Positions 30,936 through 34,607 of a stretch of 34,726 nucleotides of DNA are shown here, one piece after another (within the stretch, counting starts at the first letter, position 1; each line of letters begins with the position of its first letter). The stretch covers positions 1 to 34,726 of the forward strand of contig CAISWQ010000104.1 of assembly GCA_903889245.1 (NCBI GenBank). The letters run 5' to 3'. Below the pieces are notes generated by a model. That model was not told the origin of the DNA and searched no databases. It saw only the letters and a list, made by a program, of their open reading frames with translations. This DNA comes from an uncultured Lentisphaerota bacterium (lineage in GTDB: Bacteria; Verrucomicrobiota; Kiritimatiellia; CAIQIC01). The translations under genes and the position numbers were made by a program.

Positions 30936-31432
30936 AGGAAACGCCGAAACAAATTTTGTTTGTCTGTACCGGCAACATCTGCCGCAGCCCGATGGCGGAG
31001 GTGATCGCGCGCGCGCGGCTCGGCGAGAAATCCGGCTGGAAGGTGGCCAGCGCCGGCGTCGCCGCGATCCACGGCGAGCCGGCGAGCGGGGAAGCGGTCG
31101 AGGTCTGCCGCGAACTGGGCTTGGACCTGCGCCAGCACGGCAGCCAGCCGGTGACGCGCGAGTTGCTGGAGCAGGCGCGCTGGATCATCGTGATGACCCA
31201 GATGCACCGCGAGGTGCTGGCGCGGCGCTTCCCGGAATACCATGCGCGCATCCGCCTTCTGAAATCATTTGGCTTTCCCAAGGGTTTCGAGGATATTCCC
31301 GACCCGATCGGCAGTTCTCACGATGTCTATCGCACCGTGCGGGACGCGATTGAATCCGCGATTTCGGATTTGGTAATTTTTCTGATGGAACAGGACGGCC
31401 GGCTGAAGCACGGCAAGGAGCATAAGCAATGA
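30932..31432 (+). CDS. Low-molecular-weight protein phosphatase
   Basis: The 166-residue product has the LMW-phosphatase P-loop CTGNICRS (Cys12 nucleophile, Arg18) and the acid loop DPIG (Asp124). The gene stands where ywlE stands in Bacillus subtilis. YwlE is an arginine phosphatase whose specificity depends on Thr11 in the P-loop (CTGNTCRS). Here that position is Ile16, as in tyrosine-specific members. By that rule it should be a phosphotyrosine rather than a phosphoarginine phosphatase (established rule, inference for this protein). It is coupled by ATGA overlaps to tsaC upstream and the rpiB-glyA gene downstream. Confidence 0.88.
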
Positions 31433-33096
31433 AGATGGCGATTGGCGCCGATCACGGCGGCTTTGAACTGAAGGAACTGCTGAAGAAACAGCTCGCGGAG
31501 CGCAAGCTCGAGGTCGAGGACGTCGGCGCGTTCAGCAAGGAATCCACCGACTATCCCGACTATGCGCGCGCCGTGGCCGAGCGTGTCGTTGCGGGCCGCG
31601 CCGACCAGGGCCTGCTCGTCTGCACCACTGGCATCGGCATGAGCATCACCGCGAACCGCTACGCCGGCGTCCGCGCCGCGCTGTGCGACGAGCCGCGTCT
31701 CGCCAAGGCCGCGCGCCAGCACAACAACGCGAACGTCCTCGTCCTCGGCGGCAGCGTCGTCGGCCCGGCGCAGGCGACCGCGATCCTCGACGCGTGGCTC
31801 GCCGCGACGCCGGACACCGCCGAGCGCCACGTCCGCCGCGTACAGAAGATGGACACGTGCTGCATCGGCGGGCTGGCCGCGACCGATCCCGCGATCTTCC
31901 AGGCGGTCAAGGACGAGGAGCGCCGCCAGCGCGACAATCTCGAACTGATCGCGTCGGAAAACTACACCAGCCGCGCCGTCTGCGAGGCGCAGGGCTCTGT
32001 GCTGACCAACAAGTATGCCGAGGGTCTGCCCGGCAAGCGCTGGTACAGCGGCTGCGAATACGTCGATGTGGCCGAGCGCCTCGCCATCGAGCGTGCGAAG
32101 CAGCTCTTCGGCGCCGAGCACGCCAACGTCCAGCCGCACTGCGGCAGCGCCGCGAACATGGCGGTCTACTTCGCCATGCTCCAGCCCGGCGACACCGTCC
32201 TCGCCATGAGCCTCGCGCACGGCGGCCACCTGACGCACGGCCACCCGATGAACTTCTCCGGCCGCCTCTTCAAGATCGTCCCCTACGGCGTGGAGGCGAA
32301 GACCGAGCAGATTGATTACGATGTCCTCGCCCGCCTCGCCCGCGAGAGCAAGCCCAAGCTGCTGCTCGTCGGCGCCAGCGCCTATCCGCGCGTCTTCGAC
32401 TTCCCGCGCCTGCGCGCCATCGCCGACGAGGTCGGCGCGCTGCTGATGGTGGACATGGCGCACATCGCCGGCCTCGTCGCCGGCGGCGTGCATCCCAGCC
32501 CCGTGCCCTATGCCGATTTCGTCACCAGCACCACGCACAAGACCCTGCGCGGCCCGCGCGCCGGCCTCGTCCTGTGCCGCGCCAAGTACGCGGCCGATAT
32601 TGACAAGACCGTCTTCCCCGGTTTGCAGGGCGGCCCGCTCGAGCACGTCATCGCCGCGAAGGCCGTCTGCTTCCACGAGGCGCTGCAGCCCGCCTTCAAG
32701 GACTACGCGCGGCAGATCGTCGCCAACGCGAAGGTGATGGCCGGCGCGCTCGCCGCGGGCGGCCTGCGCATCGTCTCCGGCGGCACCGATAACCATCTGA
32801 TGCTCGCCGATGTCACCACGCTCGGCCTCACCGGCAAGGACGCCGCCGCCGCGCTCGACAAGGCCGGTATCACGGTCAACAAGAACGCGATCCCGTTCGA
32901 CACGAAGAGCCCGTTCGTCACCTCCGGCATCCGCATCGGCACGCCCGCGGTCACCACGCGCGGCATGAAGGAGCCGGAGATGGAACTGATCGCCACGTGC
33001 ATCCGCGAGGTGCTCGCCGCGCCCGCCGACGAGGCCAAGCTCGCCGCCGTCCGTGCCAAGGTCCTCGCGCTCACCGCGCGCTTCCCGGTGCCGTGA
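31429..33096 (+). CDS. Fused ribose-5-phosphate isomerase B and serine hydroxymethyltransferase
   Basis: One 555-residue frame encodes two complete enzymes. Residues 1-140 are RpiB (ribose-5-P/ribulose-5-P isomerase): [26 protein letters not shown] (Cys65), [13 protein letters not shown] (His98). From about residue 150 the rest is GlyA (Ser + THF to Gly + methylene-THF): [43 protein letters not shown] and [13 protein letters not shown] (PLP Lys371). No linker separates them, and there is no stop or frameshift between. Met141 could serve as an internal start (ATG at 31849) for a separate GlyA, but no ribosome-binding site precedes it. The ATG at 31429 overlaps the previous stop. In Bacillus the same two genes are neighbours but separate. 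Confidence 0.93.
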
Positions 33097-33192: not shown

Positions 33193-33304
33193 CTTTCCAC
33201 GCCTTGGAAAAAAGTTTGGGAAATTTTCCAAGGCCCGGAAAAATTTCAGCGAAATCTTCCAAGGCTTGGGAAAACTCCTGTTTCCGCTTCCCATCCTTGG
33301 AAAG
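33193..33304. repeat. Phased palindrome array, 4 copies
   Basis: Copies centred at about 33202, 33233, 33264 and 33295, 31 bp apart each time. These are the most diverged copies (ACGCCTTGG, AAGGCCCGG, AAGGCTTGGG, CATCCTTGG). It lies about 100 bp after the fusion gene's stop and before the direct repeat. No gene is visible in the gap 33097-33584. Confidence 0.8.
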
Positions 33305-33350
33305 CGCCCGCGCCGAACACATCCTCCACGCCTACCGAAGCTTCAAAGAC

Positions 33351-33481
33351 GAAACTGCGGAAGTGCTGATCAACTGACCGCCGGCGCGCACATGGCTCTT
33401 CGTCCTGTGGGCGGGAGCTACAGCTCCCGCGTGCTTCAGCTTGAGGGTTGATTACGCGGGAGCTGTAGCTCCCGCCCACAA
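33351..33481. repeat. 131-bp direct repeat, left copy
   Basis: Nearly identical to 34430-34560, with about five differences in a short variable stretch. It contains a large inverted repeat with 25-bp perfect arms at 33406-33430 and 33456-33480. Each arm is itself a palindrome, GCGGGAGCT-AC-AGCTCCCGC. Confidence 0.85.
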
Positions 33482-33584
33482 GATTTCGTAGGGTCTGAAT
33501 GAGCGATAGTGGTGGATGTTGCGAACGCGGCGGGAGCATGGCACTATCTGCGTGCGGCAAGGCACAAGTGGGTGCTTGTTCATC

Positions 33585-33770
33585 ATGGATGCCGAACAAA
33601 AGAGAGTGCTGCGCGCCAAGACGCCGGCCGAAAAACTCGCCTTGGCGGAGCAGCTCTATTGGCTGGCCCGCGACGTGAAGGCCGCCGGCCTGCGCGCGCT
33701 GCACCCCGACTGGAACGAAGAACGCGTCGTCCGTGAAGTGAGGGCCATTTTCCTTGCAGCCCACACCTGA
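33585..33770 (+). CDS. Small helical protein paired with nucleotidyltransferase
   Basis: A 61-residue product, MDAEQKRVLRAKTPAEKL at the N-terminus, then ALAEQLYWLARDVKAAGL and HPDWNEERVVREVRAIFL. It is wholly helical with no recognised domain. Small proteins with a similar LYWxAR...HPDW...V(R/K)xIFL pattern are often found directly upstream of a nucleotidyltransferase gene (recollection, not checked). Its 3' end overlaps the next gene by 17 bp. The start at 33585 is the first in-frame ATG inside a sensible length; an upstream ATG at 33516 would add 23 residues with no recognisable pattern. No clear ribosome-binding site. Confidence 0.55.
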   Translation: MDAEQKRVLRAKTPAEKLALAEQLYWLARDVKAAGLRALHPDWNEERVVREVRAIFLAAHT

Positions 33771-34320
33771 TCTGCTGCTGGCGTTCATCCGCCCGTTGAA
33801 CCGGCTGGGGTTGGATTACATGGTCACCGGCTCGATGGCCGTCATCGTCTATGGTGAACCGCGCCTGACGCACGATGTAGATATTGTTTTGGTGCTGCCA
33901 GCAAACGCCATTGCTCAACTTCATGACGCCTTCCCGCTGGATCAATTCTACTGTCCGCCAGTGGAAGTTTTAGCCACGGAGGCGCGCCGGGTGGAACGCG
34001 GGCACTTCAATCTGATTCACCACGCCACAGGCTTCAAAGCCGATGTCTATCTGGCTGGCGATGACCCCTTGCATCGCGCCGGCTTGAGCAAACGGCGGCG
34101 CATCGAGGTCGGCGGCGAGGCTGTACAGGTCGCGCCACCGGAATACGTCATTGTGCGCAAGCTGGAATACCATCGCGAGGGCGGCTCGGAAAAGCATCTG
34201 CTCGACATCCAGAGCATGCTGGAACTTTCGGGCGAACAAATTGATCTGGCCGAAATCCAGACGTGGGTCACTCGTCTGCATCTGCAAGCCGCGTGGGAGA
34301 AGATTGCACCGACAGCCTGA
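33754..34320 (+). CDS. Nucleotidyltransferase-fold protein (MNT/AbiEii-like)
   Basis: The 188-residue product has the minimal nucleotidyltransferase signature: VTGSMAVIVYG (Gly26-Ser27) and, 14 residues later, HDVDIVLVL (Asp41, Asp43), followed by a helical region. Such proteins act as toxins or antitoxins in MNT/HEPN and AbiE-type systems, or as uncharacterised transferases. The start is TTG at 33754, chosen because it overlaps the upstream small gene and gives a family-like N-terminus; ATG at 33820 would cut into the fold. The two genes sit between 131-bp direct repeats, so they may form a movable cassette. No HEPN partner with its RxxxxH motif is seen. Confidence 0.7.
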   Translation: MQPTPDLLLAFIRPLNRLGLDYMVTGSMAVIVYGEPRLTHDVDIVLVLPANAIAQLHDAFPLDQFYCPPVEVLATEARRVERGHFNLIHHATGFKADVYLAGDDPLHRAGLSKRRRIEVGGEAVQVAPPEYVIVRKLEYHREGGSEKHLLDIQSMLELSGEQIDLAEIQTWVTRLHLQAAWEKIAPTA

Positions 34321-34322
34321 CC

Positions 34323-34382
34323 TTGTAGGCCGGGTCTCCGACCCGGCGCACAGAGCGCCCGGTGAGGTCACCGGGCCTACAA
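34323..34382. repeat. Double-hairpin repeat with TTGTAGGCC/GGCCTACAA arms
   Basis: The outer arms TTGTAGGCC (34323-34331) and GGCCTACAA (34374-34382) enclose two hairpins: one CCGGGTC/GACCCGG and one CGCCCGGTGA/TCACCGGGC. It follows the nucleotidyltransferase stop directly and could act as terminator. A half-unit with arms CCGCGTGA/TCACGCGG follows at 34411-34428, ending at the start of the right direct repeat. Confidence 0.68.
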
Positions 34383-34429
34383 CAATCAGAAAATTATTGG
34401 CCACTGTAGGCCGCGTGACCTCACGCGGC

Positions 34430-34560
34430 GAAACTGCGGAAGTGCTGATCAACTGACCGCCGGCGCGCACATGGCTCTTCGTCCTGTGGGCGGGAGCTAC
34501 AGCTCCCGCGTGCTTCAGCTTGTGGTTTGATGGTGCGGGAGCTGTAGCTCCCGCCCACAA
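34430..34560. repeat. 131-bp direct repeat, right copy
   Basis: Partner of the copy at 33351-33481, starting GAAACTGCGGAAGTGCTGAT. It contains the same 25-bp inverted repeat (34485-34509 and 34535-34559). The stretch 34561-34658 holds no gene other than the possible insertion-sequence end. Confidence 0.85.
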
Positions 34561-34607
34561 AGCTTGTAAAGGCTGCGCATGGGAAAAAGCGTGCGCCCGC
34601 GCCGAAC

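Follow-up and report, generated by a model that had tools for sequence, protein, structure and literature searches.

A MenAT1-like toxin-antitoxin gene pair between 131-nt direct repeats as a candidate case of insertion with long target duplication

The window analyzed in this study, a whole contig of 34,726 nt from an uncultured Lentisphaerota bacterium, carries two overlapping genes that are enclosed by a pair of 131-nt direct repeats (Table 1). Judged by sequence, gene order and predicted fold, the enclosed pair is a MenAT1-like toxin-antitoxin (TA) module, and we consider it probable (roughly 60%) that the pair arrived here through an insertion in which a long target tract, made up of about 52 nt of unique sequence and the adjoining hairpin, was duplicated. 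Related modules lying between duplicated ends of neighboring genes suggest that small addictive modules need no transposase to insert into chromosomes, and that a long stretch of the target is duplicated in the process.

Table 1. Coordinates in the window of the gene pair, the framing repeats and their parts.
Feature	Position	Strand	Basis or remark
Left copy, 131-nt direct repeat	33351..33481	+	52 nt unique segment and 79 nt hairpin repeat
Unique 5′ part of the repeat	33351..33402	+	two genome copies only
REP-like hairpin repeat, dispersed family	33403..33481	+	about 45 genome places; conserved arms, variable loop
Inserted segment between the repeat copies	33482..34429	+	948 nt
Small antitoxin gene, MenA1-like (Rv0078B family), 61 aa	33585..33770	+	Pfam PF18993, E = 8.8e-7, above cut-off
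Nucleotidyltransferase toxin gene, predicted MenT1-like, 188 aa, TTG start	33754..34320	+	conserved catalytic residues, predicted fold
GTAG-type second hairpin repeat family, three units	34323..34429	+	insert ends on the right with the last unit
Right copy, 131-nt direct repeat	34430..34560	+	repeat comparison

The original prediction that the repeats enclose a small gene and a nucleotidyltransferase gene was confirmed: the two reading frames overlap by 17 nt, and both can be regarded as real genes, because the same overlapping order of small gene followed by transferase gene recurs in 71 of 76 related loci. The Rv0078B-related antitoxin family to which the small protein was assigned is also matched by 31 of the 37 members of its protein family. 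For the transferase, whose named relatives come largely from Verrucomicrobiota-type genomes, the Pfam matches were weak, and the one to AbiEii (DUF1814; E = 0.011) stayed below the cut-off; the same family is matched at E ≤ 0.01 by 13 of 46 transferase relatives. A profile search with the transferase retrieved MenT1 (8an4) at 4e-5 and 5uvd at 2e-9. Alignment of 46 sequences revealed that T39, D43, K136 and D151 are invariant and that D41 is conserved in at least 90% of them, with R37 also among the invariant or nearly invariant residues. These six positions correspond to R37, T39, D41, D43, K137 and D152, the catalytic residues of MenT1 (PMC10435456, PMC11375011). The AlphaFold2 model of the transferase reached a pLDDT of 92, and its top three structural matches were all MenT1 entries (8an4, 8an5 and 8rr5; Z 16.5 to 15.1), the next entry scoring 12.5.

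The pair thus resembles MenAT1 (Rv0078B-Rv0078A) of Mycobacterium tuberculosis in having a small antitoxin gene directly upstream of the toxin gene, an antitoxin of the same Pfam family, the catalytic residues, and a predicted fold whose best structural match is MenT1 (Z 16.5, 20% identity). It differs in that sequence identity is only about 20%, in that the host belongs to a distant bacterial group, and in that the TTG start of the toxin gene lies inside the antitoxin gene, with the two genes overlapping. The earlier suggestion of a possible toxin-antitoxin pair is supported, in MenAT1-like form, by PF18993, the MenT residues and the predicted MenT1-like fold, and a MenT1-like tRNA nucleotidyltransferase toxicity that is checked by the small protein would be expected. 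The alternative suggestion of a phage-defence pair was not supported and was rejected: PADLOC and NCBIfam searches returned no match, and no relative was found in phage records. On plasmids, only four relatives were found, which are distant and all cyanobacterial.

The two repeat copies, predicted to be near-identical, agree at 126 of 131 positions (96%) at a spacing of 1079 nt, and the repeat extends to 132 nt when the preceding C, common to both copies, is included. Each copy contains the expected 25-bp inverted repeat with self-palindromic arms. All five mismatches (33444, 33447 and 33453–33455) lie within 12 nt of the hairpin loop, a clustering with p = 1.6e-4 under random placement, which argues for two separate copies rather than a single sequence doubled by the assembly. 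Two parts make up the unit. Nucleotides 1–52 occur at two places only in the genome, identical in both, whereas the 3′ 76–79 nt (nucleotides 53–131) form a hairpin of two inverted 25-nt arms, each palindromic, whose family occupies about 45 places in the 5.26-Mb genome and is present in many copies in two of three other genomes of the genus; its arms are conserved and its loops vary. The unit as a whole is therefore not a dispersed palindromic GTAG REP element, as only nucleotides 53–131 are dispersed. Scattering of the repeat without framed genes, named at the outset as an observation that would speak against a framed cassette, was accordingly found for the hairpin part and not for the 52-nt part. 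Two hairpins alone could meet by chance; since the 5′ segment of about 52 nt is found in these two copies only, the framing is, on the evidence of the sequence, a real local duplication of DNA. The 52-nt segment matched no gene end in Pfam and genome searches; positions 33351–33377 may represent the tail of an open frame (...DETAEVLIN stop), for which Pfam gave no match.

Analysis of related loci indicated where such repeats can come from. Three relatives have repeats, of 28, 80 and 104 nt, that duplicate the 3′ end of the gene adjacent to the pair. The longest, at locus L140 of genome G627, comprises the final 104 nt of a radical-SAM gene, and the sister genome G612 (L170) has one such gene end, followed without any pair by the DNA that follows the far copy in G627. 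Both copies in G627 carry GACTCG, which is absent from three sister genomes; this shared strain-specific variant argues that resident DNA was duplicated, and a donor origin of this gene end was rejected after alignment. The 80-nt repeat, at locus L123 of genome G125, corresponds to the 3′-terminal 80 nt of an Ldh-family oxidoreductase gene; genome G869 has a single Ldh-family gene end and then, with no pair, the native downstream DNA, which in G125 follows the displaced copy. The shortest (L102 in G334) is the last 28 nt of purL. A decayed MenAT-like remnant was found in a sister genome (G607, L169, 3599–3765), downstream of the radical-SAM gene whose end is duplicated in G627, indicating that a single insertion does not account for the whole history of the site in that genus and that sister sites lacking the pair may represent either the ancestral state or precise excision. 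A further locus (L148) has a VapC-like (PIN) toxin gene between 104-nt repeats that read as a cysN 3′ end.

Relatives with a single repeat and no pair, which the original prediction had proposed to look for, thus exist for L140 (G612) and L123 (G869). For the contig's own locus, no comparable single-copy pair-less site was found among the relatives examined. The gene upstream of the left repeat copy (31429–33096) is a single open frame apparently encoding a fusion of ribose-5-phosphate isomerase B with serine hydroxymethyltransferase (RpiB-GlyA), for which full-length matches were obtained in all six family genomes searched; near it, no trace of the 52-nt segment was seen in the other five family genomes, all of which have this gene, and in one genome (G004) only a hairpin repeat lies downstream of it. 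Behind the RpiB-GlyA gene, positions 33194–33303 hold four palindromic units of the TTCCAAGG type at 31-nt spacing, and similar motifs lie near 28.2 kb and beside other hairpin copies. The idea of a cassette gained or lost by recombination between the repeats is consequently upheld in part: the framing marks an inserted cassette, the same type of pair is framed elsewhere and two pair-less single-copy sisters exist, but gain or loss was not observed at the contig's own locus, for which no relative carrying the 52-nt segment turned up.

To place this locus in context, 79 pairs of the MenAT1-like type were collected from about 1,100 genomes, 77 of them with enough flanking sequence, and a pair was counted as framed when direct repeats lay on both sides at blastn E ≤ 1e-5. 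The results showed that 11 of 77 pairs were framed, compared with 9 of 330 control genes from the same loci (p = 2e-4), 28 of 548 controls when smaller genes were included (p = 0.005), and 16 of 558 when flanks were narrower and HEPN-MNT genes were set aside (p = 1e-4); control rates thus ranged from 2.7 to 5.1%, and p values from 0.005 to 1e-4. No direct repeat was detectable around 86% of the pairs, and the framing repeats are unrelated between loci. In 7 of the 11 framed cases, the framing is due wholly or partly to repeats with more than two copies in their own locus, and in only 6 of the 11 is a framing repeat present just twice in the locus, the others being dispersed or low-complexity repeats. 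By inspection, many of the repeat-framed controls are themselves of TA type (VapC-like, HEPN, MNT and HigB-like), suggesting that repeat framing is wider than MenAT1-like pairs. Framing was recorded for 10 of 35 non-MenAT TA genes versus 7 of 542 non-TA genes, a biased comparison in that the TA seeds were partly taken from repeat-positive genes; for HEPN-MNT cassettes, whose seeds were not chosen for repeats, it was 3 of 19 (p = 0.02, weak alone). In one locus (L131; G475, contig C73), small genes at 12–19 kb are separated by a 96-nt hairpin element present at least eight times; several of these genes are of TA type (MNT, HEPN, HigB-like and AbiEii-like), and the region resembles a TA-rich cassette array. 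In another (L125; G129, 9.1–11.1 kb), the short motif AAGGYCTGACYCCGG recurs between neighboring nucleotidyltransferase cassettes.

Insertion with duplication of a long target would yield the observed order of repeat, pair and repeat, and the direction of the event would be insertion rather than excision. The 948-nt insert holds no transposase or integrase, as its long open reading frames are the pair and overlapping or antisense frames only, and the length of the repeat varies between loci (28, 80, 104 and 131 nt). Together these two features favor break repair or illegitimate recombination over a transposition that makes staggered cuts of constant spacing, and a resident source for the DNA duplicated in G627 is in keeping with such repair or recombination as well. 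The pair may have been captured as filler within a short tandem duplication during such repair or recombination. Post-segregational killing would then prevent loss of the pair through recombination between the repeats, and duplications round TA pairs would persist while others were lost. Several points speak against insertion: no empty site was found for the contig's own locus, most pairs show no direct repeat, most of the framed pairs involve multi-copy repeats, and the contig's own repeat is mostly a dispersed hairpin, two of which could flank a gene without any insertion event.

Among the other routes, the one that survives best, though we consider it unlikely, is recombination of Campbell type or homology-facilitated illegitimate recombination with donor DNA, acquired for example by natural transformation, in which the pair lay beside a homologous gene end. 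At L123, TTCAGC for TTCAAC, GTC for GCC and other changes in the pair-proximal gene end are seen in none of four aligned relatives, and the displaced copy has its TAA stop and downstream DNA in common with the sister genome; as far as these alignments go, a donor origin of that proximal gene end is possible. On the other side, the displaced copy has drifted too, and the strain-specific variant in both L140 copies favors duplication of resident DNA.

Movement of the hairpins themselves was judged improbable and is already disfavored by the data. Two REP repeats might have inserted independently beside an old resident pair, or REP-associated transposases (RAYTs), which are thought to mobilize GTAG REPs (PMC3733652), might have moved the segment. 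Consistent with this, the 3′ 79 nt of the unit belongs to the dispersed hairpin family and the insert begins and stops at hairpin ends, the one on the right being of the GTAG type. However, no other hairpin copy carries the 5′ 52 nt that the two copies of the unit share without a mismatch, which rules out an origin of the unit from two independent hairpin insertions, and the 80-nt and 104-nt repeats at L123 and L140 are coding gene ends, not REPs.

Site-specific integration seems about equally improbable. Integrative elements often insert behind stop codons and duplicate gene 3′ ends, and the insertions directly after stop codons with duplicated gene 3′ ends would be accounted for if the pair were a minimal passenger whose att sites copy gene 3′ ends, with an integrase acting in trans and the repeats as attL and attR. 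Against this, the repeats differ between loci in sequence and length with no common core seen, the insert is without an integrase, and the same host-specific substitution in both G627 copies points to host DNA duplicated on the spot. An integron gene cassette was rejected, as the attC core motifs RYYYAAC and GTTRRRY are missing on both strands of both repeat copies.

An IS-linked composite, in which the IS3-like element near the right copy (left end at about 34608, multiple genome copies) moved or created the unit, is very unlikely, because 47 nt separate this element from the right repeat, the left side showed no second IS, and at the gene-end-framed loci L140 and L123 the pair alone lies between the repeats. 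The IS3-type element reported to begin beside the right copy is thus present, but it does not adjoin the repeat, and its membership in the repeat-framed unit was rejected since it sits outside. The contig ends inside this element, whose first 119 nt or so are common to six other contig ends. An identical 15-nt sequence, GCGCCCGCGCCGAAC, is located exactly 32 nt outside each repeat copy (33304–33318 and 34593–34607), and its right occurrence abuts the left end of the IS3-like element.

Direct-repeat scars together with pair-less sister alleles offer a handle on the insertion event, and thereby on the question of how small TA modules of chromosomes can move in the absence of plasmids, phages or transposases. 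More tentatively, with odds that we put somewhat below even, TA cassettes in general (MenAT1-like, HEPN-MNT and VapC) may spread by transposase-free insertion that duplicates 30–200 nt of target, often a gene 3′ end; addiction would keep the otherwise unstable duplication, and TA pairs would thereby preserve recent insertion scars. This predicts that TA function should guard the scar against recombinational loss.

MenAT systems and REP elements are already known, as is insertion with long target duplication. GTAG-tagged REP elements, e.g., those of Opitutus terrae (PMC3733652), are palindromic, dispersed intergenic repeats like those found here within the repeat unit and where the insert ends on the right; in contrast, the 131-nt unit carries 52 nt of non-REP sequence, and REP mobility by itself is not enough to explain the unit. 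For restriction-modification systems, insertion with long target duplication has been described (Nobusato et al., 2000, Gene 259:99, as cited in PMC1643837 and PMC3031569). In a limited literature search, no application of it to TA modules was found, and in the TA-focused papers checked the phrase appeared in reference lists only. As far as these citing sources describe it, the likeness lies in an addiction-type module framed by long target repeats of variable length without a transposase inside, and in single-copy, module-free alleles in relatives of two loci (L140 and L123). It differs in that the cargo here is a TA pair and not a restriction-modification system, that another bacterial group is involved and the repeats are often gene 3′ ends, and that the contig's own locus has the repeats and the pair, the empty allele being seen at L140 and L123 only. 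Restriction-modification and TA modules would both keep their repeats, because recombination between the repeats would delete the module and kill the cell or slow its growth. If the reading proposed here is true, insertion with long target duplication would extend from restriction-modification systems to TA modules.
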